Shown one piece after another: positions 163 through 38,660 of a DNA stretch of 38,701 nucleotides. The stretch's first letter is position 1. Every line of letters begins with the position of its first letter. Below the pieces are notes generated by a model, which was given only the letters and a program-made list of their open reading frames with translations, made no database searches and was not told where the DNA came from. Source of the DNA: an uncultured Lachnoclostridium sp. GTDB taxonomy: Bacteria; Bacillota; Clostridia; Lachnospirales; Lachnospiraceae. Position numbers and translations under genes: made by a program. The stretch covers positions 1 to 38,701 of the forward strand of contig CANBKJ010000021.1 in NCBI GenBank assembly GCA_947369165.1, in the 5' to 3' direction.

Positions 163-915
163 TTACAGCGGCGCCATCAGAACCTTTCCAGTTCCCCGGT
201 ACACATTCACAAGTCCCTCGCCGCTTGCCGCAGAACCGATCAGTGTTTTGGTAGAGCGCTCAACCGTAAACTTAAGGCTCTGACTCCAGGCAATGGCAAA
301 ATTGCCATCCACCTTCAGCTCATCATCTTGAAGTTGTACTTCCACAAGCTCTTCTCTTGGGCAGTTGCATTCAAGAACCGCAAAACCATTTCCGATCAGG
401 CAGGAATTGAAAAGCCCCTCTCCCCCAGCGATAGCAGAAGAAAAAGATTTACGGGATACCGTTTTGATCTCAGTATTCGCGTCACAGGCAAGAAACAGTC
501 CATCATCAATGACCATACCGTTCCAGGCTGCCACATCTTCAATAATTAGGTATTTATAGGTTGGTTCTAACATAAGAATGCCCTTACCAGTGTACTTCGG
601 CTTGATTGTTGATTCATTTGTCACCTTTGAGCTGACAAACTTTTTCGCAAGATCACCAACACCTTTTACGTTTGTACCGCTGCTCACACTTCCTGCCATC
701 CACTGCATCGCCCCAGCCTGAACGATCACATCATGCTCTCCATCCAGATTAAACATCACCTGACGTCTGCGAATATTCATTTTGGATGAATAATATGCCT
801 GCATCGCAGCCCCCGGATTGGTGCTGAGATCCTGCTCATATTCATAGATCGTAATATTCCCCTTCTGCTCGATTATTTTACGATTATCCGTGTCTGGCAT
901 CTTTACTTGATACAT
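163..915 (-). CDS. AIM24 family protein
   Basis: A 250-residue soluble protein that reads as a member of the AIM24/TIGR00266 family, named after a yeast mitochondrial protein; the bacterial members have no agreed biochemical role. Visible family traits are the beta-rich, glycine-studded sequence, a central stretch on the pattern of 'GKGILMLEP' and a later 'GGEGLFNSCLIGNG' segment, with no signal peptide and no membrane helix. AAGGAGG sits nine bases before the ATG. It lies 97 bp after the acyl ligase gene on the same strand, so it may be the last gene of the TetR-controlled cassette or have its own promoter in the gap. The family call is fairly secure; membership in the pathway is inferred from position only. 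Confidence 0.8.
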   Translation of the reverse strand: MYQVKMPDTDNRKIIEQKGNITIYEYEQDLSTNPGAAMQAYYSSKMNIRRRQVMFNLDGEHDVIVQAGAMQWMAGSVSSGTNVKGVGDLAKKFVSSKVTNESTIKPKYTGKGILMLEPTYKYLIIEDVAAWNGMVIDDGLFLACDANTEIKTVSRKSFSSAIAGGEGLFNSCLIGNGFAVLECNCPREELVEVQLQDDELKVDGNFAIAWSQSLKFTVERSTKTLIGSAASGEGLVNVYRGTGKVLMAPL

Positions 916-1012: not shown

Positions 1013-2518
1013 CTACCTCTTTATCTTCTTTGAAGGAGTTTTTTCAAATTCCTGATCCCGGATCTTCAAACGATATATTCTTTTATGGGTTGGCGCCCCC
1101 GCATTGTATTCATCGATGACCTTCTGCATCTCTTTCTCCACGTCATCCACCTGTTTTCTTGCTATATATTCCTGATCGGGAAAAATCTCAGCCTCGATAA
1201 CACCTTCAGATTCCCGGACGAGGATCTCCTGCACCAGACGGGAAGAGCCAATCTTATTTTCCAGCTCTTCCGGGGATACATTTTCCCCATTTTTCGTGAT
1301 GATAAGATTCTTTTTCCTTCCGGTGAGATAGACAAAGCCGTCCTCATCCACATATCCCAGATCCCCGGTCTTTAACCAGCCATTCTCCAGCGTCTCAGCA
1401 GTTTCTTTCGGCATTTTGTAATACCCTGCCATCACACTGCTTCCCCGGATCCACAATTCATGTTCCACCACCTTTGCCTCACAGTTCGGCATAAGCTGTC
1501 CCACAGAATCCTTGCGGATATTCCAGCTGAGATTGGTGCTGATAACCGGGGCGCACTCCGTCATCCCATAGCCCTGCTGGATTCGGATGCCATACCGTTC
1601 AAACAGATCGATATAGTCCGGATTCAGATAAGCGCCGCCACTGCAGATCGTATGCAGATTTTCTCCAAACACCTGCTGTCTTACTGCCTCCGGGGGCAGT
1701 CCCTCCGCCGCCTCAAGCTTTTTTGCCAGTGTCTCGATCATCAGCGGAACCATTAGGATCATGTCCGGCTGGAAGATCTTCATATTCTTTGCCATGTGCA
1801 TCAGGGAGTCATTGATACAGATCACGCTTCCCAGGGAAATCCCTTTTATAATGTCCATGCTGAGGCAGTAAGCGTGGTGTATAGGAAGTACTGAGAGAAT
1901 AACTGTGCGCTCCGGAAATTTCATATCCAGACAGGTGGCATTTTCAGCAATGTTGCGCTGTGTGAGCATAACGCCTTTGCTCTTTCCTGTGGTTCCCGAT
2001 GTAAACATAATCGTACATAAATCCTCCGGTTTCGGGCGGTGGTCAACTCCCCTCTTCTGGGCGTTCACCAACTCCCAGAAAGACTCCATCCCTCCCTCTG
2101 CCTTTTCTTTCTGCATAGAGAGAACATAACGGATCTTCGGACAGCGTTCCCGCACTATGGCACCCACATCACTGCGGACTTCATCCAGCACCAGTACGGT
2201 GGCATCCGACCGGTGGATCAGCTCACACATTTCCTCCGCCGGCAGAGAGACATCCAGGGGGACCGCCACACATCCGCTTCCTGTCACACCAAGAAACGCG
2301 GTGATCCACGTATAGGAAGTCATACCCGTTATGGCAATATGGTTTCCCAGCTCTCCCAGTTCTCTCAGGACGCTGGAAAAATGGTCGCTGTCTTGTTTTA
2401 ACTGGGCATAGGTCTTTTCCTCGATGCCGTCTTTTGATACCCGGTAACGGACTGCCTCTTCCGAACCGTATTTTTTGTCTGCTGTATCAAGTATTTCCCA
2501 AATCGTCGAATAGATCAT
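1013..2518 (-). CDS. AMP-forming acyl-CoA/acyl-ACP synthetase (adenylate-forming ligase)
   Basis: A 501-residue ANL-superfamily adenylation enzyme expected to activate a carboxylic acid with ATP and pass it to CoA or to the carrier protein encoded just upstream. The phosphate-binding loop SGTTGKSKG is at about 174-182, the GYGMTE adenine motif at about 316-321, the TGD hinge region at 384-386 with the following GRKK segment, and a C-terminal PSKKIKR carrying the expected catalytic lysine of the A10 motif. I start at the ATG at 2518 because GGGGAGG lies six bases upstream; an in-frame ATG at 2548 would overlap the carrier gene stop as ATGA but has no Shine-Dalgarno sequence. Immediate neighbours are the ACP and a condensation-like protein, which favours acyl-ACP over acyl-CoA formation. 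The substrate cannot be read from the sequence. Confidence 0.88.
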   Translation of the reverse strand: MIYSTIWEILDTADKKYGSEEAVRYRVSKDGIEEKTYAQLKQDSDHFSSVLRELGELGNHIAITGMTSYTWITAFLGVTGSGCVAVPLDVSLPAEEMCELIHRSDATVLVLDEVRSDVGAIVRERCPKIRYVLSMQKEKAEGGMESFWELVNAQKRGVDHRPKPEDLCTIMFTSGTTGKSKGVMLTQRNIAENATCLDMKFPERTVILSVLPIHHAYCLSMDIIKGISLGSVICINDSLMHMAKNMKIFQPDMILMVPLMIETLAKKLEAAEGLPPEAVRQQVFGENLHTICSGGAYLNPDYIDLFERYGIRIQQGYGMTECAPVISTNLSWNIRKDSVGQLMPNCEAKVVEHELWIRGSSVMAGYYKMPKETAETLENGWLKTGDLGYVDEDGFVYLTGRKKNLIITKNGENVSPEELENKIGSSRLVQEILVRESEGVIEAEIFPDQEYIARKQVDDVEKEMQKVIDEYNAGAPTHKRIYRLKIRDQEFEKTPSKKIKR

Positions 2519-2544
2519 CGTATACCTCCCCGTATCTAAAGCAA

Positions 2545-2772
2545 TCATTCTATGATTGTAGATAAATAATCAACCGCTTCCTGCACCGTCCGGATGGAAC
2601 CCGCCTGGGCCGAATCGATCTCAATATCATACTGCTCTTCCAATTCCCCCATCATACTCACAAAGTCAAAAGAAGTAAATCCAAGATCCTCCATAAACCG
2701 GGAATCTGGATGAATATCTGACGGCTCTGCCTCCACATAATTACAAATTATCTCTCTCAGCTCTTCAAACAT
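2545..2772 (-). CDS. Stand-alone acyl/peptidyl carrier protein
   Basis: A 75-residue acidic helical protein of the phosphopantetheine carrier family. Ser34 in the stretch DLGFTSFDF matches the attachment serine, although the usual DSL is TSF here. The length equals a typical ACP. AAGGAGG lies nine bases before the ATG. It sits between the condensation-like gene (31-base gap) and the ligase (26-base gap). That placement suggests a dedicated carrier loaded by the ligase, not the housekeeping AcpP of fatty acid synthesis, which is absent from its frequent place between plsX and rnc in this window. Modification by a phosphopantetheinyl transferase must come from elsewhere. Confidence 0.85.
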   Translation of the reverse strand: MFEELREIICNYVEAEPSDIHPDSRFMEDLGFTSFDFVSMMGELEEQYDIEIDSAQAGSIRTVQEAVDYLSTIIE

Positions 2773-2802
2773 GATCTTCCTCCTTATAATTCCAAAGAAA
2801 TA

Positions 2803-4206
2803 CTACACAAGTTTCATGATCTCACCGATGGTAAGGTTCGGGTTTTCTGCGCCCTTAAACATGATCCTGCACAGATAATAATACAGATATTCCAGCTGCT
2901 TACGGCTGACTGCCTTCACCTGGTGTTCAAAACTAAAATCCAGTCCATTGTCCTCCGGACGGTGCATGACCGTTAGATACATCGCCTGGGTCGTGGCGCC
3001 ATTGGGATACCATTTGGTCTTATACTTAATATCTCCCAGCTTTTCTAACTCTTTATCCCGCATGGACATCGGCTGATAGGTAAGGGACATCGGTTCATAC
3101 ACCCGCCCCGGCGCCTTGTTCCACACCTTGCTCTGATGGGCAAAAAATGCCACGGGATCGTAGTTCGCATGGCGGAAATACTCATTTTGGCGATCCCGTA
3201 TCTCATAAATTCCCTCCAGAAAAGTTCTGTCCTCAGTAATAATTGTCCGAAACGGAAATGAATGAATCCTCGTACCGCCGCTCTTCTTCTCCTTTAGAGT
3301 TCCTCTTCTTGCGATCGTGGTCGTAATGGACACATCATCGTTATGGTTCATTTTCTGGAAATAGGTCCGCAGTCCCATCATCAGCAGGCAGACCAGAGAT
3401 ACGTGATAGGTTTCACAAAAATCCATAAGACGTCTGGTAGGTTCTTCCTCCAGATGAAATACATCCAGCGCCGAATCCACAGAATCAGATACATTCACCG
3501 CCGCCCTGGCATCCGGATTTCCAGAGTTCTTTCGTTCAGCCTCTAACCGTCCCGGACCGTCAATGCCGTTATAGATCGGTTCCGAAGCCTCGATCAGCTG
3601 GTGGAAAAAGGCCTCGTCCTTCTGTTTCGCCTTTGATTCTGCCTCATAGGCGAGATCTTTCTTCACCTGCTCGATATAGGAAGCCATCTCCTTGGGATAG
3701 GCAACCCCCTCATACATATTATGGCAGTAGATCTCAATGATATCTTTCAAAAAACAGATCATGGACTGGGCATCCATGATGCGGTGATCCACCAGAAAAT
3801 ATACTCCCTGATATCCGTCGGGCATCCGGATCATAACGATACGGCTCATGGGCGCATCTTCTTTGGTAAAGGGAACCTGTGTCCAGCTCTGTAGCACCGC
3901 TTCCGCCTCTTCCATGGTCTTTGTAGAAAAATCTTCTGAACCGATCTCCATCACTGCATCCTGGCACACATACTGATACCATGTGCCATCTTTATCCTTA
4001 AAAAAATGAACCTTTAGACACTCACAGCGCTCATATGCCTCCCCGATCGCCTCTCTCAGCACGTCAAAATCCAGATCTGCCCCGATGGTCAGGCTGGTTC
4101 CAATATTCAGAACTTCCTTTTTAGGACAAAAATCCATATAATAAAAATGGAATTTCTGCGCCACAGTCAGCGGATACACCGGATACCCTTTTCTCGTCTT
4201 TCTCAT
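2803..4206 (-). CDS. Condensation-domain-like acyltransferase (degenerate HHxxxDG)
   Basis: A 467-residue protein resembling stand-alone members of the CoA-dependent acyltransferase/NRPS condensation superfamily. The segment VDHRIMDAQS around residues 140-147 fits the HHxxxDG active-site motif with the second histidine (His141) and the aspartate (Asp145) kept, while the first His is Asp and the Gly is Ala. No adenylation or carrier domain is fused. The start is the ATG at 4206, which overlaps the hydrolase stop as ATGA and has GGAGGA upstream; a longer reading from 4233 is less likely. With the adjacent carrier and ligase it would transfer a carrier-bound acyl group to an amine or alcohol acceptor. 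That role is inferred from family and context; the acceptor is unknown. Confidence 0.65.
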   Translation of the reverse strand: MRKTRKGYPVYPLTVAQKFHFYYMDFCPKKEVLNIGTSLTIGADLDFDVLREAIGEAYERCECLKVHFFKDKDGTWYQYVCQDAVMEIGSEDFSTKTMEEAEAVLQSWTQVPFTKEDAPMSRIVMIRMPDGYQGVYFLVDHRIMDAQSMICFLKDIIEIYCHNMYEGVAYPKEMASYIEQVKKDLAYEAESKAKQKDEAFFHQLIEASEPIYNGIDGPGRLEAERKNSGNPDARAAVNVSDSVDSALDVFHLEEEPTRRLMDFCETYHVSLVCLLMMGLRTYFQKMNHNDDVSITTTIARRGTLKEKKSGGTRIHSFPFRTIITEDRTFLEGIYEIRDRQNEYFRHANYDPVAFFAHQSKVWNKAPGRVYEPMSLTYQPMSMRDKELEKLGDIKYKTKWYPNGATTQAMYLTVMHRPEDNGLDFSFEHQVKAVSRKQLEYLYYYLCRIMFKGAENPNLTIGEIMKLV

Positions 4207-5156
4207 ACTCTCCTCCATTCCTCTTCCAGCCACTCATCCAGTGTGCTCTCATATTGCTTCATGTCCTTAAAATAACTTTCAGCATGAGCCGCTCCTTCGA
4301 TGACCAGCTTTCTCTTCGCCGCCCCATAATGTTCAAAGATCTTGTCGCACATCCAGCTGGGAACAAAACCATCCTTAGAGCCGTGGATCAGCAGAGCCGG
4401 GATCTTTGCTTTTTTCACCTCTCTGGCCGCATTGCACTCATCCAGACTGTATCCCGCCAGGCGTCGATTGAGCCAATCGGAAATCCCCATCATCGGAAAT
4501 GCCGGTATATGATACATGGAACGCAGTACATGGGAAAAAACTTCCCTCGGTGAGGTAAATGCACAGTCCGAGACCACGCCCCTCACCTGTTCCGGCAGTT
4601 CCAGACCAGTACACATCAGCACCGTTGCCCCTCCCATGGAAATTCCATGAAGCAAAATATCCGTATCCCTGCCGCAGCGGTCTAACACCCACCGGATCCA
4701 TAATAAGGCGTCCCGCCGGTCCAGACATCCAAACCCTATGTATTTTCCCTCACTGTCGCCGTGGGCTCTGGCATCCAACAAAAGCATACTGAATCCTCTT
4801 TTCAGATAAAAATCCGAAAGGGCAATATAGTCTTTCATCCCCTGGCTGGTGTATCCGTGAAAACAGATCACCACTTTCTTCTGGTCCCCCTCGGGAAAAT
4901 AAGTAGCGTGAAGCCTCAGACCGTCTTCTGATTCCAGATATACGTCTTCCCTGCTATGAGCCAGAAACCGCTCCTTCCGCTCTTCGATCACCGGCATATA
5001 GCGGTTCCAGTCGGTTCCAGACATTTTAATCGTCCTCTTATTATTTGCCTTCCCCGGACAACGTATCATCGTCCGACGGTACATATAGACAGAACCCGCC
5101 AGCTCTGCGATCGTGAAGCCCCCAATCGCTGCCAGGATTCCTCTTCCAATCCCCAT
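4203..5156 (-). CDS. Membrane-anchored alpha/beta hydrolase
   Basis: A 317-residue serine hydrolase. A single hydrophobic helix near residues 6-25 probably anchors it to the membrane, followed by an alpha/beta fold with HGYTS (oxyanion region), the nucleophile elbow HGISMGG (Ser173), Asp262 in HGSKDG and His291 in GAAHAES forming the likely triad. It resembles the clostridial 'alpha/beta hydrolase with N-terminal helix' group related to bacterial BEM46/YqkD-like proteins. GGAGGTGA lies just before the start. It is the second gene of the cassette and its stop overlaps the condensation-like gene by ATGA, implying translational coupling. It may release or edit the acyl product; the substrate is unknown. 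Confidence 0.85.
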   Translation of the reverse strand: MGIGRGILAAIGGFTIAELAGSVYMYRRTMIRCPGKANNKRTIKMSGTDWNRYMPVIEERKERFLAHSREDVYLESEDGLRLHATYFPEGDQKKVVICFHGYTSQGMKDYIALSDFYLKRGFSMLLLDARAHGDSEGKYIGFGCLDRRDALLWIRWVLDRCGRDTDILLHGISMGGATVLMCTGLELPEQVRGVVSDCAFTSPREVFSHVLRSMYHIPAFPMMGISDWLNRRLAGYSLDECNAAREVKKAKIPALLIHGSKDGFVPSWMCDKIFEHYGAAKRKLVIEGAAHAESYFKDMKQYESTLDEWLEEEWRRV

Positions 5157-5174
5157 CGTCTTTCACCTCCGGAA

Positions 5175-5504
5175 TCAGCGTTTGCTGTTAATCAAGTCTT
5201 TTAATTTGAGTGCCTTATCAATATTTCCCTCTACCTTTAATTTCTGCAGGGTAAAAGCCAGCACCGGATCCAGCTTTCCTTCTGCGATCTTCATAAGTGT
5301 TTCTGCGCTCGCAGTAAACATGGCGTCCCGGTCATAATATTCATAAGGTTCTACATACAGCTGCCCCTCTTTTACCTCAACATAAAAAATTCCTTCCGCT
5401 TCTCCCGTGATATTGAACTGATATGCTAAATGTTCTGTGACATCACTGACATCGGCTCCCATAAACTGCTCCTTTACCAGAGCAAAAAAATCTGCATAGT
5501 TCAT
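5175..5504 (-). CDS. SCP2 sterol-binding-domain protein
   Basis: A 109-residue single-domain protein of the SCP2/UPF0 lipid-binding fold. The signature is the C-terminal half, where 'ASAETLMKIAEGKLDPVLAF' continues into 'LQKLKVEGN', as in SCP2 domains that carry fatty acyl groups in a hydrophobic tunnel. There is no signal peptide, so it is cytosolic. It is the first gene of the cassette, 19 bases before the hydrolase, and its leader carries the downstream TetR-type operator. In this setting a lipid-carrying role for the substrate or product of the ligase/ACP pair is plausible, but this is inferred. Confidence 0.85.
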   Translation of the reverse strand: MNYADFFALVKEQFMGADVSDVTEHLAYQFNITGEAEGIFYVEVKEGQLYVEPYEYYDRDAMFTASAETLMKIAEGKLDPVLAFTLQKLKVEGNIDKALKLKDLINSKR

Positions 5505-5526
5505 TTTTCTACATTTTCCTTTCTTT

Positions 5527-5542
5527 TTCGACCAGCGGTCAA
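5527..5542. promoter_or_regulatory. TetR-type operator, copy 2 (early transcribed region)
   Basis: An identical 16-base copy of the dyad, with the identity extending to about 22 bases. It lies 44 bp from copy 1 in the same orientation, just downstream of the predicted transcription start and before the SCP2 ribosome binding site. Bound repressor here would block elongation. Confidence 0.65.
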
Positions 5543-5557
5543 CTCTATTACAAGATT

Positions 5558-5586
5558 ACAATAACACTTTTTCGACCAGCGGTCAA
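5558..5586 (-). promoter_or_regulatory. Promoter of the SCP2-to-ligase cassette
   Basis: On the minus strand TTGACC (5586-5581) and TATTGT (5563-5558) are spaced by 17 bases, a good sigma-A-type promoter. Transcription should start near 5551, about 47 bases before the SCP2 start codon. The -35 box is part of an operator dyad. Confidence 0.6.
5571..5586. promoter_or_regulatory. TetR-type operator, copy 1 (over the -35 box)
   Basis: TTCGACCAGCGGTCAA is a near-perfect dyad, GACC-N3-GGTC at its core (5574-5584). It covers the -35 element of the cassette promoter. The shape and size suit a TetR dimer, and the divergent tetR gene is the obvious source of the repressor. Confidence 0.65.
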
Positions 5587-5719
5587 CTCTTTTTCAGGTT
5601 TTAAGAAAATTATGCTGCCCTACAGGAAAACAGGATACAAATTGGCGCTATTAATCTAACAATTTTCTCTAAAATATGATATACTTTGGTGTATCAGTAT
5701 CAATCGGAGGAAATTAACC

Positions 5720-6334
5720 ATGCCAGAACCTATGAAATATGAAAAAATATTAGATGCACTGGAAGATTTACTGACCAGCAGGGACATGCAGGCGATCACG
5801 GTCCGGGAGATCGCCCAGGCAGCCGGTATTGGAAAGGGAAGTATCTATTATTATTTTTCCTCGAAGGAAGAGATCTTAGATGCATTAATAGAACGTAATT
5901 ATAAAAAACCTCTGGAGCTGGCAAAAAATCTCGCCACCCAGAAGGAGATTCCCCCATTCACGCGGATGGCAATGCTTTTTCAGGCCTGCCGCAGCTCTTC
6001 GGCAGAATTTATCCGGCAGGATGCCTCGGTATCCGCGCTGGAAACCGGAACGGAGTGGGCATTCCTTCACCAAAAATACCTGAACTATATGGTGACGGAA
6101 TTAAAACCGGTGCTGACATCCATTATTCAGCAGGGCATTGAAACCGGAGATATCACTTTTGACCATCCCGCCGCCCTGGCTGAAATCGTTTTAATTATCT
6201 TAACGGTAAAACTGGATAACACCATCGTCCCTTCTACCGAGGAAGAGACAGCGGAAACGATCCGGGGATTGATCTGCCTATTGGAAAAGGGCACCGAAAA
6301 TCCCATCGGTGCCCTTAACTTCCTAATGTCGTGA
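5720..6334 (+). CDS. TetR/AcrR family transcriptional regulator
   Basis: A 204-residue regulator. The N-terminal helix-turn-helix at about 26-48 has the classic TetR pattern, 'ITVREIAQAAGIGKGSIYYYF', followed by a ligand-binding region without clear homology by eye. It is divergent from the SCP2-to-ligase cassette, and the two matching dyads sit in the shared 215-bp gap close to the cassette promoter, so it very likely represses the cassette and responds to an acyl or lipophilic ligand. CGGAGGAAA precedes the ATG; a weak promoter is possible with a TATACT box at 5680-5685. The last 46 bases of the gene hold a terminator hairpin for the opposite strand. Confidence 0.92.
   Translation: MPEPMKYEKILDALEDLLTSRDMQAITVREIAQAAGIGKGSIYYYFSSKEEILDALIERNYKKPLELAKNLATQKEIPPFTRMAMLFQACRSSSAEFIRQDASVSALETGTEWAFLHQKYLNYMVTELKPVLTSIIQQGIETGDITFDHPAALAEIVLIILTVKLDNTIVPSTEEETAETIRGLICLLEKGTENPIGALNFLMS
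6285..6314 (-). terminator. Terminator of the his operon inside tetR
   Basis: On the minus strand GGGCACCGA pairs with TCGGTGCCC (positions 6314-6306 and 6297-6289) around an eight-base loop and is followed by TTTTCC, the layout of a factor-independent terminator. It lies within the last codons of the convergent tetR gene. On the plus strand the trailing sequence is TTAACTT, a weaker signal. Confidence 0.7.
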
Positions 6335-6412: not shown

Positions 6413-7708
6413 TCATTGGTCAAAGCGGACAGCAATGGAATTGGCATGCGCCGTCAGCTGCTCCGCATTGGCAAACTGAATGATATCTTTGTGGATCGGC
6501 TCCAGTGCCTCTCTGGAATAAGAGATCAGACTGGATTTCTTGATAAAATCATCTACATTCAGCGGTGAGAAAAACTTAGCGGTGCCATTGGTGGGAAGTA
6601 CATGGTTCGGTCCCGCAAAATAGTCCCCCAGGGGCTCACTGCTGTATTCACCAAGAAAAATCGCTCCGGCATTTTTTATTCTTGTCATGGTATCAAAAGG
6701 ATTCTTCGTCAAAATCTCAAGGTGTTCAGAGGCGATCTCGTTAGCCGCCCGTATGGCGTCGGACATGGAATCTGCCACCAGAAGATATCCGTAATTTTGC
6801 AGTGATTTCCGGATGATATCCGCACGGCTCAACGTCTTCAAAAATTCCTGAATCTCTTCTTCCACCCGCACTGCCAGTTCCTCACTGGTGGTCACCAGGA
6901 TGGCAGAAGCCAGTTCGTCATGTTCTGCCTGGGATAAAAGATCCGCCGCCACATAACGGGGATTCGCTGTCTCGTCTGCCAGCACGAGGATCTCACTGGG
7001 ACCTGCGATGGAATCAATGCTCACATGTCCATATACGCTCTTTTTCGCCAGCGCCACAAATATATTTCCCGGTCCGCAGATCTTTGCCACCTTTTTGATG
7101 GAAGCGGTGCCATAGGCAAGGGCAGCCACTGCCTGAGCCCCTCCTACTTTGTAAACCTCTGTAGCTCCTGCCAGGTCTGCTGCCACCAATGTAGCAGGGT
7201 TTACCTTCCCATCTGATCCCGGAGGCGTCACCATCACGATGCGTTCCACTCCCGCCACCTGGGCTGGAATGATGTTCATAAGCACACTGGAAGGATATGC
7301 CGCTTTTCCCCCTGGCACATATACGCCGACACTCTCTAAGGGCGTGATGCGCTGTCCCAGAACAACTCCGTCCTCTCTCGTTTCGATCCAGCTGTTGCGG
7401 AGCTGTTTTTTATGAAAATCCTGGATGTTTGCCAGAGATTTTTTCATAACCTCTACCAGAGATGTCTCCACCTGGGCGTATGCCTCCTGGATCTCTTCCC
7501 CGGTCACATGGATATTGTCCGGTGTGATCTCTGTTTTATCAAATTTCTTTGTATAATGGAACAGGGCTTCATCTCCCTTTTCCTTTACCTCGTTTAAAAT
7601 CTCATTTACCGTATCCTGATAGGTGTCATACTGGTTTGGACTGCGTTTCAGCAGACTTTCCAGAATATTTTCCATCGATGCATCGTCCAGTCTGATCCGT
7701 CTCATCAT
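6413..7708 (-). CDS. hisD: Histidinol dehydrogenase
   Basis: A 431-residue NAD- and zinc-dependent enzyme that oxidises L-histidinol to L-histidine, the last step of histidine synthesis. Family blocks seen are 'SIDSIAGPSEILVLAD', the SQAEHDE segment with zinc-site residues, the HLEIL block and 'LGDYFAGPNHVLPT'. The length equals the family norm. AAGGAG precedes a double ATG; I take the first. It follows hisG by 13 bases and is the last gene of the ilvA-hisZGD run. The other histidine genes (hisB, C, A, F, H, I) are not nearby. The usual hairpin terminator lies beyond it, in tetR. Confidence 0.97.
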   Translation of the reverse strand: MMRRIRLDDASMENILESLLKRSPNQYDTYQDTVNEILNEVKEKGDEALFHYTKKFDKTEITPDNIHVTGEEIQEAYAQVETSLVEVMKKSLANIQDFHKKQLRNSWIETREDGVVLGQRITPLESVGVYVPGGKAAYPSSVLMNIIPAQVAGVERIVMVTPPGSDGKVNPATLVAADLAGATEVYKVGGAQAVAALAYGTASIKKVAKICGPGNIFVALAKKSVYGHVSIDSIAGPSEILVLADETANPRYVAADLLSQAEHDELASAILVTTSEELAVRVEEEIQEFLKTLSRADIIRKSLQNYGYLLVADSMSDAIRAANEIASEHLEILTKNPFDTMTRIKNAGAIFLGEYSSEPLGDYFAGPNHVLPTNGTAKFFSPLNVDDFIKKSSLISYSREALEPIHKDIIQFANAEQLTAHANSIAVRFDQ

Positions 7709-7721
7709 CGCCCTCTCCTTT

Positions 7722-8363
7722 CTATCCGTTCAATGCCTGCTTTAAATCTTTTACGATCTTTGTGATCCGCTCCCGTTGCATCTTCATGCTCGCCTCATTG
7801 ACAACCACTCTCGCCGACAGCGGACAGATCTCCTCCAATACCTCCAGACCGTTTTCCTTCAGGGTGGAACCAGTCTCCACGATATCTACAATTACCTCGG
7901 AGAGGCCCACGATGGGTGCCAGTTCCACGGAACCATTCAGCTTCACGATCTCCACGGTCTGATGTTTTTTATTGTAAAAATAATCCTTGGCGATCTTCGG
8001 ATATTTGGATGCCACCCGGATGATCTCATTTTTTTTCAAAAGCTCTCTGGCGGATGCCGGACCTGCCACACACATACGGCATTTCCCAAGTCCCAGATCC
8101 AGAACCTCCAGAATCTTACGCCCCTCTTCCAGAATGGTATCACTTCCAACCACTCCGATATCCGCAGCGCCGTATTCTACATATGTAGGCACATCCGAAG
8201 TCTTGGAAAGGAAAAATTTCAGTCCCAGCTCCTCATTGACAAAGATCAGTTTTCTCGTATCCTTGTCCTTCATTTCCTCACAGGTGATGCCCGTCTGTTC
8301 CAGTAATGCCAGTGTCTGCTTGGCAAGTCTTCCCTTTGCCAGTGCAATCGTTAAATATTTCAT
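7722..8363 (-). CDS. hisG: ATP phosphoribosyltransferase catalytic subunit, short form
   Basis: Catalyses the first, committed step of histidine synthesis, joining ATP and PRPP. From the ATG at 8363 it has 213 residues, the short form that lacks the C-terminal regulatory domain and needs HisZ. Visible features are the N-terminal 'LTIALAKGRLAKQ', 'AADIGVVGSDTI', and the PRPP loop 'IVDIVETGSTLKENGL'. This start has GGAGGAAGG five bases upstream; a longer in-frame reading to 8471 would run into hisZ and is rejected. It follows hisZ by 22 bases. Confidence 0.97.
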   Translation of the reverse strand: MKYLTIALAKGRLAKQTLALLEQTGITCEEMKDKDTRKLIFVNEELGLKFFLSKTSDVPTYVEYGAADIGVVGSDTILEEGRKILEVLDLGLGKCRMCVAGPASARELLKKNEIIRVASKYPKIAKDYFYNKKHQTVEIVKLNGSVELAPIVGLSEVIVDIVETGSTLKENGLEVLEEICPLSARVVVNEASMKMQRERITKIVKDLKQALNG

Positions 8364-8385
8364 ACCTTCCTCCATCCTGAATCTG

Positions 8386-9603
8386 TCATAGATCGATCGT
8401 TGTTGTCTGGTCGTCTTCCACATAGACAATGCTGGAAATCTGATTCTCTGACGCATAGCCGCGGTATACATCCAGCTCTGTCTCCGCGTCCCTGCGCATC
8501 AGCATCACGCGGCGTCCCTCATTCCGGTAACGGTTTCCCAGATGAACCGCATCTTTGCGGCTGGCAGAACGGTACAGGATCAGGATGCCGTCCGTCTCTG
8601 TGGGGATCTCCGCGTTCTGACTGGCGAGGGCGTTCATAAGCTGGTCTAAAACAATGGCAAGTCCTACCGCCGGCGACTTTTTGCCAAACTGCTCGATCAG
8701 CCTGTCATAACGTCCCCCGGTGACGATCGCCTCTCCGGTTCCGTATGTATATGCTTTAAAAATTATTCCTGTATAATAATCGTAATGACTGAGCATTGAC
8801 AGGTCAAAGGTCACACTCTCTTCCAGCCCATAGATTCCAAGAATCTCCTGGACAGTCTCCAGACGCTGCAATGCTTCCAACGCCAGCGGATGGCTCACCC
8901 TCTCCCTGGCATACGCCAGTGTCTCTTCTGCGCCAAACAGATCCGGAAGCCGGATCAGCAGCTCTTTTAACCGGGAAGAAAGATCTTTCTTCTCGATCAT
9001 CTCCTCCACGCCAAAACTATTTTTATTTGCAATAAGACGCTTATATTCCTGAATCTCTTCGGCCGAAAATCCAGACTCTTCCATCAGACCACGAATAAAT
9101 CCCGCATGACCCACATCGATCTTAAACTCCTTCAGACCAGATCTGGCAAGACATTCAACGGTCATAGCAATCATCTCAGCATCCGCATCGGAACTGGAAT
9201 CATTCATAAGCTCGGCGCCGATCTGGGCAATCTCCGAGAGCTTTCCCTGATACCCCCGCCGATGGATGAACGTATTTCCAGAATAGGAAAGACGGATGGG
9301 CATCTCTTCTGCTGAATAATATTTTGCCACACACCTTGCGATGGATGGCGTGATATCCGGCCGCAGTGCCAGGGTATTGTTATACTGGTCAAAGAATTTG
9401 AACATTTCCTTTGATTCCACGGTCCCCCGCTCCTGGTTGAAAATATCGAAAAATTCAAAGGTCGGGGTGAGGATATCCTGAAACCCATAGAGTTTCATGA
9501 TCTTATGAATCTCGGCTTCCACCCACTCTCTTTTCTCACATTCCACACCATATATATCCCGGACTCCCTCCGGAGTAAACAACAAATTCTGTTCGTATTC
9601 CAT
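8386..9603 (-). CDS. hisZ: ATP phosphoribosyltransferase regulatory subunit
   Basis: A 405-residue paralogue of histidyl-tRNA synthetase that has lost aminoacylation and acts as the regulatory partner of short HisG. It starts with the 'TPEGVRDIYG' block and keeps the class II synthetase core, including 'ALRPDITPSIAR', 'YSGNTFIHRRGY' and 'GGRYDRLIEQFG', but has no anticodon-binding domain after it; the C-terminal tail is short. It opens the hisZGD block 20 bases after ilvA. A true HisRS would be longer and have histidine motif 1 (LVPRGTSDR-like), so HisZ is the better call, supported by the adjacent short hisG. Confidence 0.95.
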   Translation of the reverse strand: MEYEQNLLFTPEGVRDIYGVECEKREWVEAEIHKIMKLYGFQDILTPTFEFFDIFNQERGTVESKEMFKFFDQYNNTLALRPDITPSIARCVAKYYSAEEMPIRLSYSGNTFIHRRGYQGKLSEIAQIGAELMNDSSSDADAEMIAMTVECLARSGLKEFKIDVGHAGFIRGLMEESGFSAEEIQEYKRLIANKNSFGVEEMIEKKDLSSRLKELLIRLPDLFGAEETLAYARERVSHPLALEALQRLETVQEILGIYGLEESVTFDLSMLSHYDYYTGIIFKAYTYGTGEAIVTGGRYDRLIEQFGKKSPAVGLAIVLDQLMNALASQNAEIPTETDGILILYRSASRKDAVHLGNRYRNEGRRVMLMRRDAETELDVYRGYASENQISSIVYVEDDQTTTIDL

Positions 9604-11867: not shown

Positions 11868-14800
11868 CTATTGTGCTGCCGCATTCTGCTCATTTTTCAA
11901 CTGTTCCTCGATCAGCTTGACAGAAACAAGAGTTGACACACCCTTTTCCTGCATTGTGATACCGTAGAGGGCATCTGCCGCCGACATCGTTCCCTGCCGG
12001 TGGGTGATCACGATAAACTGTGTGTTCTTCGTTAGTTTATGTAAATACTTCGCATACCTCTTTACATTGGAATCATCCAGCGCCGCCTCGATCTCATCCA
12101 GCAGGCAGAAGGGGGATGGTTTCAGGTTCTGGATGGCAAATAAAAGGGCAATCGCCGTCAGCGCCTTCTCCCCACCGGAGAGCTGCATCATATTCTGCAG
12201 TTTTTTTCCCGGCGGCTGGGCGATGATCCGAATACCAGCTTCTAACACGTCTTCGTCCTCCACCAGTTCCAGGGTTCCCTTTCCACCGCCAAACAATTCC
12301 CGGAATACCCGGTCAAACTGGGATTTGATCTGGCTGAACTTTTCGTTGAACTGCCCCCGCATCTCCTCATCCAGATCGGCAATGATCTGTTTCAGTGCCT
12401 CCTCGGACTCGATCAGATCATCGTGCTGGGTTTTCAGCAGTTCATAGCGCTCACTGACGCTTTTATAGTCCTCAATGGCATTGACGTTGACGTCTCCCAG
12501 TCCGCGGATACTGTTTTTCGTCTCGCCCACCAGGTTTTTGATCCTCGCATAAGTAAATTCCGGTTCTCCTGCCGTCTCTTTGGCATTGTGGTAGGTGATC
12601 TCGTACTCGTTCCACATATAGTTGATGCGGTTTTCCAGCTGTTCCTCCAGTTTTTCCTTTCGCGCCCCCAGCCGGAAGCATTCTTTATCCAGTTCACCGA
12701 TGTGCTCCATCATCTCATTTCTCTTGTCAAAGAAATCTTTCTGAGAAACCATCAGCTCTTCTTTTTTCTTCGTGTAGTCTTCAATCTCCTGTTCCAGTGT
12801 GGCGATCTCGTCTTTGCAGGTCGTGATCCGCCCCTCAAACTCTTTGATAGACTGGTTCATCTGATCCACCTGGGTGTCTGAACTGTTCTGTTCCTCCACA
12901 AGCGCCTGATATTCTTTTTCCAATTCTATCAGCCGGTTCTCTGTCTTTTCCAGATTTTCCAGAAGAAAGCTGTTCTTCTGGGTAAAAGAAGAAATATCCA
13001 GCTTGAGCTCTGCCAGCCTTTCCTGGGATTTTGAGAGGGTTTCCGCTGCCTCTTCCAGTTCCTCTGTGGTCTGCTCCTGGATCTCTTTCGCCAAATCGTT
13101 TTTCCTCTGGCTCTCGTCCAGCTGGAAATCGATGCGGGACAGAGTTTCCGTCAAAATGTTTTTCTGGCTTTCCAGTTCCTTGCCGTCGTTGACGATGGCA
13201 TTGAATTCTGCCTCTTTCTGCTCCTTCACCGCCACCGCCTGCTCGTATTTGATGTTCGCCGTATTCTCACGAAGCCCCAGCTCCTTGAGCACAGAATCCT
13301 TTTCTTTCGCCCTCTGCTCCGCCTTACTGGCATCTTCCTCCAGACGCTTTCTCTTATCCCGGAGCTTGTCCATAGATTTTTCAATCTTCTGGATCTCCTC
13401 TTCCAGTTTTTCCATCTCCCGGCGCCTTCCCAGAAGATTATTGCTGTTCTTATAGGCGCCTCCGGACATGGAACCACCCGGATTTAGAAGCTCACCCTCC
13501 AGCGTTACGATGCGCAGGGTATGCTTGAATTTCCTTCCCAGCGCCATAGCGTGGTCAATGGTATCCACCAGGACAAACCGCCCCAGAAGATACTGTACCA
13601 GACCGTCAAACCGATGATCCTTCTTTACCAGTTCCGACACGCAGCCGATCACACCCGATTCCGAGAGCACCTCCGGCTTAATCCGTCCCGCCGCGGCAGA
13701 TACCGTGGTCAGCGGAAGAAAAGTAGCCCGTCCATAACGGTGCTTTTTTAGGAAGGTGATCATGTCTTTGGCAGTCTGCTCATCCTCTGTGACAATGTTC
13801 TGGATGCTTCCCCCCAGAGCGGTTTCCACCGCCGTTTCATATTTTTTATCAACCTGTATAATATCTGCCACAACGCCCACAATACCAGAATTTTCCTGTT
13901 TTTGCTCCATTACCCGGCGGATGCTCTGTCCATAGCCATCGTAGCGCTCCGTAATATTTTTCAGCGTGGCAAGGCGGGAAGATTTCATATGATAATCCCT
14001 CTGCCTGTCATGTAGTTCATGCTGAAGGTCTTTAACTTCAGTCCGGCATTCTTCTGCCTTCTTTAAAAACTCTTTTCTCTTTACATATTCCGCGTCCAGG
14101 GACTGGCGGATCTCTTCCAGCGCGGCCTCTTCCTGCTGCATTTGTTCGACAGCAGCAGCTACCTGGCTTTTGTTCGACAGAATCCTCTGGTTCAGCTCCG
14201 CCTTGCGGATGGAGTTCTGCTCCATCATGGACGCAATCTTCTGATGCTCGATATGAATCTCCGAGGTCTGATTCATGGAAGACAGTATGATGTCATTTTG
14301 CTCAGCGATGGTTTTTTCCATCTCCCCGATCTTTTCACCGAGCTGGTCTGTCTCTTTGAGAAGCTCTTCTTCTTCCGACTGCATCTGCACCAGCGTCCCA
14401 GTAAATTCCTTCTGGCTTTCCAGATATCCCTCTTTTTCCTTCGTGACCTCTTCCACAGATGCCTGAATGCTGCCCATGCGGTCAGTATAGTATTCCTTTC
14501 CATGAGAAAGAGAAGAAATCTTTTCTTTCGCGATGCGGATCTCTCCCTCGATACCGGCAAGTGTAACACGGTCTCTGTTACACTTCTCCTTTTTCTGCTC
14601 CAGCAGTTCGTCGTATTCCTTGATCTGATGTTCTACCTCTTCAAACCTGGATTTGGTGCTCTCCTGCTCTTTCTTGACCTCATCCAGTTCCTTTTCCGCA
14701 TTGGAGATATTGGTCTTTGTCTCCTGCAGGTCTTCCTGGCCGCTGTCATAATCCTGTATAAACAGGCTGATCTCATATTTTTTCAGTTCTTCCTTCAGCC

Positions 14801-15449
14801 GCAGGTATTCTCTCGCCTTTTCTGACTGTTTTTCCAAAGGTCCTACCTGTTTTTCCAGCTCTGTCAGGATATCGCTGACGCGGAGCAGATTCTGGCTCTC
14901 CGCTTCCAGATTTTTTTCTGCTGTTGCCTTTCTCTTCTTAAACTTTACAATTCCCGCTGCTTCATCAAAAAGCTCCCGGCGCTCCTCCGGTTTACCGCTA
15001 AGGATCTTATCAATCTGCCCCTGGCCGATGATCGAGTATCCCTCTTTTCCAATTCCGGTGTCAAAAAAAAGCTCCTGTACATCCTTCAGCCGGCATGTCA
15101 CACCATTGAGAAGATATTCACTCTCCCCGGAACGGTATACCCGCCTCGCCACCTGTACTTCCTCATAGGGCACATTTAACTTATGGTCCTCATTGGAGAT
15201 CGTCAGCGCCACATAGGCATAACTCTGAGGCTTGCGAAGCTCTGTTCCGGCAAAGATCACATCCTGCATACTGGCGCCGCGAAGCTGTTTGGCACTCTGC
15301 TCTCCCAGAACCCAGCGGACGGCGTCGGCCACATTACTCTTTCCGCTCCCATTGGGTCCCACGATGCCGGTTATGCCGTTGTGGAACTCAAACACCAGCT
15401 TGTTGGCGAAGGATTTAAAACCGTGAACTTCGATACTTTTCAGATACAT
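11868..15449 (-). CDS. smc: Chromosome partition protein SMC
   Basis: The 1193-residue condensin ATPase that loops and compacts the chromosome together with ScpA and ScpB (not in the window). Order of parts: Walker A GPNGSGKSN near residue 31-39, a long coiled coil, the hinge at about 510-665 with GGSMSGGAYK just after it, a second coiled coil, then the signature LSGGEKALTA and Walker B 'CLLDEIEAALDD' near the C terminus. I start at the ATG at 15449 with GGAG seven bases upstream; a TTG two codons earlier is less likely. It follows rnc by 13 bases. Confidence 0.97.
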   Translation of the reverse strand: MYLKSIEVHGFKSFANKLVFEFHNGITGIVGPNGSGKSNVADAVRWVLGEQSAKQLRGASMQDVIFAGTELRKPQSYAYVALTISNEDHKLNVPYEEVQVARRVYRSGESEYLLNGVTCRLKDVQELFFDTGIGKEGYSIIGQGQIDKILSGKPEERRELFDEAAGIVKFKKRKATAEKNLEAESQNLLRVSDILTELEKQVGPLEKQSEKAREYLRLKEELKKYEISLFIQDYDSGQEDLQETKTNISNAEKELDEVKKEQESTKSRFEEVEHQIKEYDELLEQKKEKCNRDRVTLAGIEGEIRIAKEKISSLSHGKEYYTDRMGSIQASVEEVTKEKEGYLESQKEFTGTLVQMQSEEEELLKETDQLGEKIGEMEKTIAEQNDIILSSMNQTSEIHIEHQKIASMMEQNSIRKAELNQRILSNKSQVAAAVEQMQQEEAALEEIRQSLDAEYVKRKEFLKKAEECRTEVKDLQHELHDRQRDYHMKSSRLATLKNITERYDGYGQSIRRVMEQKQENSGIVGVVADIIQVDKKYETAVETALGGSIQNIVTEDEQTAKDMITFLKKHRYGRATFLPLTTVSAAAGRIKPEVLSESGVIGCVSELVKKDHRFDGLVQYLLGRFVLVDTIDHAMALGRKFKHTLRIVTLEGELLNPGGSMSGGAYKNSNNLLGRRREMEKLEEEIQKIEKSMDKLRDKRKRLEEDASKAEQRAKEKDSVLKELGLRENTANIKYEQAVAVKEQKEAEFNAIVNDGKELESQKNILTETLSRIDFQLDESQRKNDLAKEIQEQTTEELEEAAETLSKSQERLAELKLDISSFTQKNSFLLENLEKTENRLIELEKEYQALVEEQNSSDTQVDQMNQSIKEFEGRITTCKDEIATLEQEIEDYTKKKEELMVSQKDFFDKRNEMMEHIGELDKECFRLGARKEKLEEQLENRINYMWNEYEITYHNAKETAGEPEFTYARIKNLVGETKNSIRGLGDVNVNAIEDYKSVSERYELLKTQHDDLIESEEALKQIIADLDEEMRGQFNEKFSQIKSQFDRVFRELFGGGKGTLELVEDEDVLEAGIRIIAQPPGKKLQNMMQLSGGEKALTAIALLFAIQNLKPSPFCLLDEIEAALDDSNVKRYAKYLHKLTKNTQFIVITHRQGTMSAADALYGITMQEKGVSTLVSVKLIEEQLKNEQNAAAQ

Positions 15450-15462
15450 AAACAAACTCCAA

Positions 15463-16158
15463 TCATTTATTATTCTTCATCTTACATAAAGCCTCATAGG
15501 CAGCATTCTGTTCCGCCGTCTTTTTGGAATGTCCCATTCCTGTCCCGAGACATGTTCCATCCAGCAGACATTTCACCTCAAATACTTTCGCATGATCTGG
15601 TCCAGTCTCTGATACGAGTTCATAACAAATGCTGCCTGTTCCCTGTGCCTGGATCATCTCCTGTAATACCGTTTTGCTGTCATAAAATAACTTTTTGTTC
15701 TCGATATCCGAGAGCACAAAACGTTTTACAAAAGACTTCGCCGTCTCCAGACCGCCATCCAGATACATGGCGCCGATCACCGCCTCAAAGGCGTCAGACA
15801 GGATGGAATCCCGCTCTCTGCCTCCGGTGGCAGCCTCGCCTTTTCCCAGTCGTATAAACCGCCCCAGCCCGATCTGTCTGGCAGAATCCGCCAGGCTTCT
15901 CTCACAGACCAGACTGGCGCGGAGCTTGGTCATCTCGCCTTCCATATCACCGCTGTGCTCGTGAAAAATAAAATCACTGCTCACCAGTTCCAACACAGCA
16001 TCCCCCAAAAACTCCAGCCTCTCATTATTTCTATTGTACGTCCAGTGCCTCTCGTTGGCAAAAGAACTGTGGGTCAGTGCATTCTGCAAAAGTCTTTTAT
16101 TTTGAAATGCATAGCCGATCCGATCCTCAAATTCCTCGATATCCTTCATATCAATCAC
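15463..16158 (-). CDS. rnc: Ribonuclease III
   Basis: A 231-residue double-strand-specific endonuclease for rRNA and mRNA processing. The catalytic domain has the signature NERLEFLGDAVLEL (about 45-58) and the later 'SDAFEAVIGAMYLDGG', with the metal-binding acidic residues in place; a C-terminal dsRNA-binding domain ends in 'SKKTAEQNAAYEAL'. I give the GTG at 16158, five bases after GAAAG and overlapping the plsX stop; the ATG at 16149 is the alternative, giving three residues fewer. Translation is probably coupled to plsX. Confidence 0.95.
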   Translation of the reverse strand: MIDMKDIEEFEDRIGYAFQNKRLLQNALTHSSFANERHWTYNRNNERLEFLGDAVLELVSSDFIFHEHSGDMEGEMTKLRASLVCERSLADSARQIGLGRFIRLGKGEAATGGRERDSILSDAFEAVIGAMYLDGGLETAKSFVKRFVLSDIENKKLFYDSKTVLQEMIQAQGTGSICYELVSETGPDHAKVFEVKCLLDGTCLGTGMGHSKKTAEQNAAYEALCKMKNNK

Positions 16159-17152
16159 AAATACTTTCTTTTATTTTCTCGTTTATGCCCTGCTTTTTAA
16201 AGGAGACACATTGTTTTATAGCGATCTCGATCTCCTTGCAGGTAGAGTTCCCATGTGCTTTTACCACCAGCCCCTTTAAACCAAGAAGCGGTGCGCCGCC
16301 CTGGCTGCTCGTATCAAACTGCTTTTTTAATCCTTTCAGGGCAGGTTTGACAAGCACCGTACCGATCTTTGTCCGCAGACTGGATAACAGTCCCTGCTTG
16401 AGACTGTCAAACATCGTCAGGGCAAGTCCCTCGAAAAACTTCAGCACAATATTTCCTACAAATGCCTCACAGACGATGACATCTGCCGCCCCCCGCACGA
16501 TTTCACGGGACTCAATGCTGCCGATGTAGTTGATTCCCTTACATTCCTTCAACAATGGTTTAGTATCCTTCACCAACTGGTTCCCCTTCTCTTCTTCCGT
16601 TCCGATATTGAGGAGCCCCACCGTAGGATTCTTTTTCCCCATCACATTTTCATAGTAGATAGATCCCATCTGGGCAAACTGAACCAGATGCTCCGGTCTG
16701 GCATCTACATTGGCACCGCAGTCAATGAGCAGGGAAAATCCCTTCGTCGTCGGCACAAAAGGCGCCAGCGGCGGTCTCTTGATCCCCTTCAGACGCCCTA
16801 CTACCAGCTGTCCACCTACCAGGATAGCACCGGTGCTTCCCGCAGAAACGACCGCATCCGCTTTTCCGTCCCGGACCAGCCTCATGGCCACCACCAGTGA
16901 CGAATCCTTTTTACTTTTAATCGCCGCCGTGGGCACATCTCCCATATCAATGATCTCTTCGGCATGAACCACCTCAATGGAATCACCGTTATATTCATAC
17001 TTCGCCAGTTCTGCCTGAATCAGGTCCTGCTTCCCCACCAGAATTACTTTGATCTCCCCGGAGGAATTCACCGCATTGACTGCACCCTGCACCGTCTGCT
17101 CCGGTGCAAAATCTCCGCCCATAGCATCCAGGGCAACAATAATCTTCTTCAT
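16151..17152 (-). CDS. plsX: Phosphate acyltransferase PlsX
   Basis: Makes acyl-phosphate from acyl-ACP for PlsY in phospholipid synthesis. The 333 residues begin with the diagnostic 'IIVALDAMGGDFAP' and contain 'VSAGSTGAILVGG', 'LLIDCGANVDARPEHL' and 'GNIVLKFFEG'. AAAGGAAAATT precedes the ATG. It is the first gene of the plsX-rnc-smc-ftsY run. In many Firmicutes acpP lies between plsX and rnc; here the two genes overlap by eight bases and no carrier protein gene is present. A leader full of inverted repeats lies upstream. Confidence 0.97.
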   Translation of the reverse strand: MKKIIVALDAMGGDFAPEQTVQGAVNAVNSSGEIKVILVGKQDLIQAELAKYEYNGDSIEVVHAEEIIDMGDVPTAAIKSKKDSSLVVAMRLVRDGKADAVVSAGSTGAILVGGQLVVGRLKGIKRPPLAPFVPTTKGFSLLIDCGANVDARPEHLVQFAQMGSIYYENVMGKKNPTVGLLNIGTEEEKGNQLVKDTKPLLKECKGINYIGSIESREIVRGAADVIVCEAFVGNIVLKFFEGLALTMFDSLKQGLLSSLRTKIGTVLVKPALKGLKKQFDTSSQGGAPLLGLKGLVVKAHGNSTCKEIEIAIKQCVSFKKQGINEKIKESICD

Positions 17153-33459: not shown

Positions 33460-36400
33460 CTAATTCTTCCCTATATAATAGCTTTCTTCTGGTCCCAGAT
33501 GAGACGCTGCTACAGGTGCTTCAGATACCACCAGTTTCTGCAGGACAAATGCTGGATCCATAGCATAGATGCGGATCGTATTGACGCCGGTATTTAATAC
33601 CACCTCACTCTGGGTCTTTCTGCCGTTTGCCTCAACATCCTTTGTCCACGATCCACTGTACTCACCTGCCTTGAAGGTTGCCGGATCCACCGTATTAAGC
33701 TTCTCTGCTTTTCCTCCATTTACTGATACTCCATAATAAATCCCCACATCTTCACGCAGCAAATTATTGGATGGCGCTGTATAGGCAGTCAGCTGGTAAG
33801 TGCCTGCCTTCTCCACAGAAACAAGGTATTCTACCCAGGCTGCATCTTCTGGAACAGAAGCCGTTTTTACATCCGTCGGTAAAGCTTTTAAGGATTCTCC
33901 AGTTTTCCCATATTTATGGATAACGGAGATCTCCGTTCCATTGGTTCCCTTGCCGCTCTGGCTGAAATGCCCAGGCAGAATCGACGCATATCCATTGGCA
34001 TAAATAAACGTATTCGCTGCCAGACCATCTGTATTGATCTTCCTAGTCTTTACCTGAATCGTCACGATCTGAGTGCCACTCTGGATCTGGACTGTTCCCT
34101 CAGCTTCCGGATTTTTACTCCAGTCAACAGATACTTGGAAATTGTCCTGCATCTCCACCTGCCCGGAAGTCTTTGATACCTGAATCCAGTCAGCAGACGT
34201 CTTCACCGAGTAATCCAGCGGACTTTCTCCCATATTTGCTAAAGTTACTGTATAGGTTTCCTTACCAGTGCTGGTAAATTCATCCAGCTGGCATTCTCCC
34301 TCACGGTAAGCTTCTGCCTGATTTTCAAGGGTGACAGAAAGTCCTGTCTGGTCAGATTCCCGCAGCCACTTTGCTGTAGGATATTTCCATCCTTCCGAAT
34401 TCCAGGTAACATAACCTACATGTGGAGAACTCATCATATTTTTCCATTTATCCCCCACGCCTGGCATATCATTATTGTATGTATTCTGCAGATCTTTATC
34501 CTGCTGAATGGAATCTTCCACAAGTGCCGCATATAGATTTGCATTCATGCTGCCAAGGTCATAAAAATATTTATTCAATCCTTTGCCAATCTGCATCTTC
34601 GCTACGGCTGCCGCTCCCACCACAGGGTAATAGATCAGTTCAAAATATGCCGCCTGATGGCTTTCTGGAATCACGTCTTTATACTCATCTGCCAGCTGCT
34701 CCATCTTCTGGACACGGTCCAACACTCTTACCGCTTCGTTATAATTGGAAGCATTGTACGTATTCGCACTTATTACTTCCGGTTTACAGGATCCATGGAG
34801 CCATGTGTACTCCTGGATCAGAGAACGAAGGTCCTGAACCTGCTGTTCTTCAAGAGAAGAGCCAAACTGCTGTCTTACCCAGCGGTTCATATATTCTTCA
34901 GTCCGGTTCAGTCCATTTTTTCCCCAGGTATCGTAATCATATGCCAAATCCAGGAAATAAGATATGTTCATTTCCATCGGTTTCAGATCTCCTACATTGA
35001 CGATCCAGATATCATCAATACCGTGTTCATATGCCATGGTCATCTGTTCCCATACCTTATTGAGCTCCACGGTATTGATCCACTCATAAGAAGTCGGTCC
35101 TCCGTGATAGTCAAAGTGGTAATACATTCCCCAGCCCCCGGGACGGTTGATCGTCTCCTGGTCAGGAAGCGTCCGCATATTACCAAAATTATCATCACAG
35201 AGCATAATCGTTACATCATCCAACATCTCCCATTTTTTGAGTCCCTCGGCTTTCTCTGTTCCATGCCAGAACTTTTCTACCTCTTTATATACGGTTAGTA
35301 CCTGTGGTGCCTCTGACAGATCATTTTCCTCCAATATATTTTTTTGAACAGTAATAACCTTTTTCAGAAGCTCGATATTCTCCTCATCGGTTCCGGAAAG
35401 TGCGGAATCCGCCTCTCCACGCATACCCAGGGTATATACATTTTCAAAAGCCATATTTCTTTTAACGCCGTCCTGCCAGAACTTTGTGATGGCCTCTTCG
35501 TTGGTGTTAAAATTCCATTTATTGCTGTTACCATATTTTTTGTATATTCTCTGCCACTCTACACCGGCACGGCACAGCGGCTCATGATGGGAGGTACCCA
35601 TTACGATACCGTACTTGTCGGCAAGCTCTGCATTGGCAATTTTGCTGGATTTACCATCCTCGCTGAAATTATTGGACCACATCGCAGGCCACAGATAATT
35701 TCCCTTGCAACGCAGTATTAATTCATATACATGTTTATAAAATTCTTCGTTATAGCCTTTGAATTTTGCGTTCACCCATCCTGTCAGGGAAGGCGCCTCA
35801 TCATTCAGGAATATTCCACGGTATTTCACCGATGGCTCTTTTGAAGTCACATTTAACTCGGAAGCTTCCAGAACAATACTGCCCTTTTTATCCGGCACAG
35901 CATCCGCCCAGAAAATCCAAGGGGAAACACCGATCAGTTCAGAAATATGATAGAGTCCGTAAATGGTTCCCCGCTTATCGCTTCCCACTACGACAAGCCC
36001 CCGGTCGATCCCTGGTGAAGGCTGGTCTACTATCTGAATTTTGTAAGTCTCTCTTTTGCCCTGAATGGCAGATACGTCCAGCTTACCAGCTGCAATCAGC
36101 GAATCGATGACCTGATTGTTTCCAATGGAGCCTGCATAAATAGCAGTCCCCATAATATCGCCAGGATCTGTGACAACATCCGGTCTGCATTCACTGGTTA
36201 AAACCTGCTCAATATCGCCGGCAAAAGAATCCGCTACAAGACTTAACCCTTCGTAATCATCCCCTGTATCATCTATGTAAATGGAAACATAACCAAATCC
36301 TTCTGCCAAAGTAAATGGTTTCTGGGGCAGCGGAGTTGGATCCGTTACAGGCGGAGCAGAATTTGTGATCTGTGGCGGAGCCGCAGTAACTTTGCTGTCA

Positions 36401-38598: not shown

Positions 38599-38625
38599 AA
38601 CGATCAACCTCCATTCCGCATAAAT

Positions 38626-38660
38626 CATAGGAAACGGCAAATATTTTTCCGTTTCCTATG
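38626..38660. repeat. Perfect 12-bp leader hairpin before pap
   Basis: CATAGGAAACGG (38626-38637) is fully complementary to CCGTTTCCTATG (38649-38660), with an 11-base AT-rich loop, ending 28 bases before the start codon. No T-run follows. It may be an operator or a leader RNA hairpin. Confidence 0.6.

Follow-up and report, generated by a model that had tools for sequence, protein, structure and literature searches.

A probable fatty acid amide operon of Lachnospiraceae with a divergent TetR gene, a conserved operator pair and two lipid-handling genes

The window analysed here is a 38,701-nucleotide stretch of DNA from an uncultured Lachnoclostridium sp. (contig CANBKJ010000021.1), and this report concerns a unit within it of five minus-strand genes (1013-5504), which encode, in order, an SCP2 protein, an alpha/beta hydrolase, a condensation enzyme (C), an acyl carrier protein (T) and an acyl ligase (A), and which face a divergent TetR gene (5720-6334). 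We judge it probable that this unit is an operon of the C-T-A type for fatty acid amides (FAA, acyl amines) that also includes a repressor and two genes for lipid handling, working as proposed below. From this analysis the reading draws on gene content, gene order, conserved active sites, kinship to the condensation enzyme OaaC and a conserved operator pair with its promoter, and from published papers it takes the C-T-A chemistry (OaaC) and the acyl amine output of CTA+ Lachnospiraceae. A first-pass annotation of the same DNA had presented the cassette as undescribed and outside any named pathway, which does not hold for its core: the C-T-A genes correspond to the published FAA or CTA acyl amine operon, the subject of two 2026 preprints (PMC13142362, PMC13060934), as OaaC is the nearest solved structure to C and a three-gene CTA operon has been counted in 36 species of Lachnospiraceae, Blautia wexlerae among them (PMC13060934, citing Chang et al. 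2021). We class the unit as a variant within a known type of operon; the new finding of most use is its regulatory layer.

Gene content, kinship and conservation of the unit

When the condensation enzyme (2803-4233, minus strand; Pfam Condensation, 8.4e-38) was compared with all solved structures, the best match was OaaC (12kh, 'Condensation Domain Protein') at an E-value of 6e-108, with a nonribosomal peptide synthetase (NRPS) fragment as runner-up at 2e-5; the window protein and OaaC are 38.6% identical across 458 residues. In Coprococcus eutactus, OaaC works as a free-standing condensation enzyme in the FAA pathway, where a ligase and a carrier that are separate proteins join it in producing oleoyl aminovaleric acid (PMC13142362). 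The window motif DHRIMDA reads as (D/H)HxxxD followed by A and fits the published FAA logo, in which the residue after (D/H)HxxxD is S in 42%, A in 36% and G in 17% (PMC13142362). The catalytic pair reported as His141/Asp145 is present, although counting from the GTG at 4233 renumbers it to His150/Asp154, and in this numbering it is kept in 100/100 rows of relatives in the alignment. The residue following the catalytic Asp is Ala in 111/111 window-like rows versus Ser in 13/13 OaaC-like rows, but it is also Ala in both NRPS rows, and hence Ala alone is not diagnostic. In the tree of C proteins, a branch with a support of 99 separates OaaC and 12 other rows from 113 rows (111 window-like, the window included, and two NRPS rows), and the tree contains no DA-type enzyme of known product. 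On the strength of the kinship to OaaC, the genes for C, carrier and ligase belong to the C-T-A operons of the FAA type.

All other parts were likewise found at their expected places with the open reading frame (ORF) list and a Pfam search of the window, in agreement with the gene set first proposed. The ligase (1013-2548, minus strand, 511 aa) is a stand-alone AMP-forming acyl ligase (AMP-binding, 2.8e-65, and AMP-binding_C_3), with 'long-chain-fatty-acid--CoA ligase' as its top NCBIfam match at 250.7 bits, which is under the cut-off of 476. The carrier (2545-2772, minus strand, 75 aa; PP-binding, 2.3e-12) also stands alone, and its phosphopantetheine Ser34 is kept in 97/97 rows of relatives. 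Upstream of C lies the alpha/beta serine hydrolase (4203-5156, minus strand; Hydrolase_4, 1.4e-13), in whose relatives Ser173 is conserved in 93/95 rows and Asp262 and His291 in all 95, so that the catalytic residues named for hydrolase and carrier were both borne out. As to the membrane anchor named in the first-pass annotation, the structural model of the hydrolase has an N-terminal helix at residues 3-30, but peak hydropathy there is 1.56, and only 23/92 relatives exceed 1.6. The first gene is a stand-alone SCP2 lipid-binding domain (5175-5504, minus strand; SCP2, 1.7e-15; PDB SCP2 structure 4uei, E 6.5e-8); an assignment as a UbiT SCP2 protein was rejected, with 29.4 bits against an NCBIfam equivalog cut-off of 46.9. 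Read off the sequence, the ligase start overlaps the carrier stop as ATGA, as does the ATG of C at 4206 with the hydrolase stop, and these overlaps make a single transcript likely; this ATG is also the likelier start of C, compared with the GTG at 4233.

Conservation was assessed in 80 named Lachnospiraceae loci, the best 80 of 505 related stretches confirmed in the genome_contigs collection (70-97% identity); denominators below 80 count the loci in which the given neighbour was testable. The conserved unit is a divergent TetR gene followed by SCP2, hydrolase, C, carrier and ligase, with the hydrolase directly before C in 77/77 loci, SCP2 upstream in 68/75 (seven without), a divergent TetR gene upstream in 63/69 (six without, of which L066 has an opposite-strand TetR gene), and C, carrier and ligase as separate genes in C-T-A order in 68/70. 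The first-pass annotation had set conservation of the order across Lachnospiraceae as the test of its proposal, and the order held. The mechanically called ORFs flanking the unit vary, with 64 left neighbours falling in 52 families and 61 right neighbours in 45, which argues that the gene order is not due to general synteny. The AIM24 gene of the window (163-915, minus strand; AIM24, 4.2e-42), once suggested as an accessory, has a counterpart in only 3/80 named loci, all three among the nearest relatives, and is no part of the conserved unit.

A separate set comprised 24 further loci, 12 of them OaaC-like (L043-L054). In these 12, SCP2 is found in 0/12 and a hydrolase directly upstream in 6/12, and 8/12 have a gene for a TetR-like protein some 200 aa long, mostly after the ligase and otherwise near C; these TetR-like proteins are about 15-17% identical to the window TetR, and the loci lack the operator pair described below.

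With regard to the surroundings of the unit, the genes at 6413-9603, which we take to be hisD, hisG and hisZ, adjoin it in the window; all three neighbours are shared with L031, L032, L034, L035 and L036 and two with L033, and none is found in the other 18 loci of the 24-locus set. An FA_synthesis gene (16151-17152; Pfam 5.7e-104), presumably PlsX, is found some 10 kb from the unit, in the vicinity of an SMC gene (11868-15455). Further along, the window encodes a protein of glycosyl hydrolase family 115 that carries a Big_2 domain (33460-37035) and a PPK2-type kinase gene (37132-38640).

The operator pair and its promoter

The two matching dyads noted in the first-pass annotation are identical 16-mers of the form TTGACC-N3-GGTCGAA, placed 44 bp start to start between the SCP2 and TetR genes: a predicted proximal operator TTGACCGCTGGTCGAA at 5527-5542 and a predicted distal operator of the same sequence at 5571-5586, both given on the minus strand and conserved in relatives. 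They are the sole zero-mismatch matches in the 2.8 Mb assembly (92.6% complete), which has none at one mismatch. A pair spaced 43-45 bp is present in 74/80 named loci (75/81 sequences counting the window), and the six without it are L060, where neither SCP2 nor TetR was found, L079, where the copies lie 54 bp apart, and L101, L111, L113 and L128, which are contigs with little or no upstream DNA. Both strands of the 966,279 bp of the 80 named loci contained 0 pairs outside the promoter region, and shuffling gave a mean of 0.0 pairs (20 shuffles of 59 intergenic regions). On this pattern of conservation, the two predicted sites are a real operator pair.

Across the 75 rows a single base in a single row is the only departure from TTGACC at the distal site, and the proximal site varies more, as would be expected if the distal half-site is the -35 box. 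Consistent with this, an extended -10 element (TGnTAWTGT) stands 17 nt after the distal TTGACC and is kept in relatives; in the window the putative -10 box is TATTGT (5558-5563, minus strand), preceded by TG and separated by a 17-nt spacer from the putative -35 box in the left half of the distal operator (5586-5581). This -10 box is a match of the promoter scan, of which the total count was not above that of shuffled sequences. The arrangement is consistent with a -35 box inside the distal operator and a proximal operator immediately downstream of the start site.

The protein predicted to bind these sites is the TetR-family repressor (5720-6334, plus strand; TetR_N, 5.9e-16), whose binding is suggested by position and co-occurrence and which would act on the SCP2-to-ligase operon; the control by TetR proposed earlier gains support from the conserved pair. 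The protein was also considered as a Bacillus FadR, and this was rejected at 39.4 bits against an NCBIfam equivalog cut-off of 200. The pair is kept at L088, L090, L093 and L095 although no neighbouring TetR gene was found there, and in these loci the regulator may act from elsewhere.

With the operator pair as the sole query, 397 genomes of the family gave 15 matches (0 with a reversed-pattern control), and all 15 pairs sit between TetR and SCP2 genes. A C gene is present in 13/15 of these genomes compared with 55/397 overall (Fisher p 1.5e-10, ignoring relatedness). The strict pattern misses 42/55 C-bearing genomes, partly because some of these are OaaC-like and partly because the sites of relatives vary. 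The two pair-bearing genomes without C (L199 in G182 and L200 in G107) have kept TetR, the operator pair and SCP2, and the ligase fragments after SCP2 in L200 look like operon decay. The operator pair can serve as a DNA signature with which such operons are found without protein homology.

Proposed mechanism and other readings

In the proposed mechanism, the ligase would activate a free fatty acid with ATP and load it onto Ser34 of the phosphopantetheinylated carrier, after which the C enzyme, through His150/Asp154, would move the acyl chain onto a freely diffusing amine and release an N-acyl amine. This amide chemistry is carried over by analogy from OaaC, and the same kinship favours the ligase-carrier-C logic that had been put forward from the sequence. 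The probable part of SCP2 is to protect acyl chains or hand them on, and that of the hydrolase is either to release fatty acid from esters, for example monoacylglycerols, or to remove acyl-thioesters that have stalled. With both sites occupied by TetR dimers, one over the -35 box and the other immediately downstream of the start site, the operon would be kept off, and as the sites are about four helical turns apart, the dimers would lie on one face of the DNA. Repression would be lifted when TetR binds a lipid inducer, for which a long-chain fatty acid or its thioester is the likeliest candidate, and the N-acyl amine operon is probably induced by fatty acids. We infer the response of TetR to fatty acids, their carriage by SCP2 and their supply or editing by the hydrolase.

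The same machinery might serve another acceptor, with the DA-type C acylating for instance amino acids, alcohols or the head groups of membrane lipids to make a lipid for the cell itself; the split of the window C group from OaaC, the extra SCP2 and hydrolase genes and the fact that no product-known member could be placed would all fit, but we hold this to be unlikely, as alanine-type C domains make up over a third of the published FAA set (PMC13142362) and the C-T-A gene order is identical to that of FAA operons. That C, T and A are NRPS-type domains could also be explained by an NRPS remnant, either decayed or acquired from elsewhere, that has no fixed function, an origin that is very improbable given the active-site residues conserved in relatives, the 505 confirmed related stretches and the separation of C, T and A into individual genes in nearly all testable loci.

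A reading that overlaps with the FAA operon instead of excluding it is that of a stress-defence cassette, in which toxic free fatty acids are trapped and neutralised by SCP2 binding, carrier loading and conjugation, with TetR as the sensor and the amides secondary. Free fatty acids inhibit the growth of Blautia, some amines rescue it, and acyl amines have been proposed as a form of fatty acid detoxification (PMC13060934); this published toxicity to Lachnospiraceae and the rescue, the position of SCP2 as first gene and its retention with TetR and operator in two genomes without C all speak for such a role, whereas the hydrolase speaks against it, as it would, if an esterase, release fatty acid rather than remove it. 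We regard defence as the primary role as possible but not probable. Equally tentative is a combined proposal, in which the TetR-SCP2-hydrolase-C-T-A genes and the operator pair form a self-contained fatty-acid-sensing and neutralising cassette that has been transferred as a whole between members of the Lachnospiraceae: fatty acid would lift TetR, SCP2 and the carrier would take up the acyl chain, and C would dispose of it as host-active N-acyl amines. If so, luminal fat would switch the production of a host signal, which is not shown in the literature examined.

Returning to the favoured FAA operon, human receptors respond to acyl amines of this kind (PMC13142362), which have been linked to GLP-1 release, appetite and fat intake (preprint PMC13060934). 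Through a repressor whose two-site operator is so sharply defined, it would be possible to control directly when gut bacteria produce acyl amines, and the SCP2 and hydrolase genes point to two candidate extra steps in the pathway.

Comparison with known systems

Bacillus FadR, a TetR-type acyl-CoA-responsive repressor, has the same TetR fold as the window protein but a weak whole-length likeness to it, and its operator differs from TTGACC-N3-GGTCGAA.

The CTA operon known from Blautia wexlerae and further Lachnospiraceae has the same C-T-A order and is counted as three genes, the criterion being that C and A share 70% identity or more with the proteins of Chang et al., and the CTA+ strains tested produced more acyl amines than CTA- strains (PMC13060934). 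The main text of that preprint contains 0 occurrences of SCP2, hydrolase, TetR or regulator, and the main text of PMC13142362 contains 0 of SCP2, hydrolase or TetR. Among the literature matches listed, titles and abstract beginnings never place SCP2, hydrolase or TetR with this operon, though Chang et al. 2021 may do so. The OaaA-OaaACP-OaaC system (12kh; PMC13142362) likewise has free-standing A, T and C proteins and the noncanonical (D/H)HxxxD motif, with DS in OaaC where the window enzyme has DA, and to this arrangement the window adds SCP2, an adjacent hydrolase, a divergent TetR gene and the operator pair.
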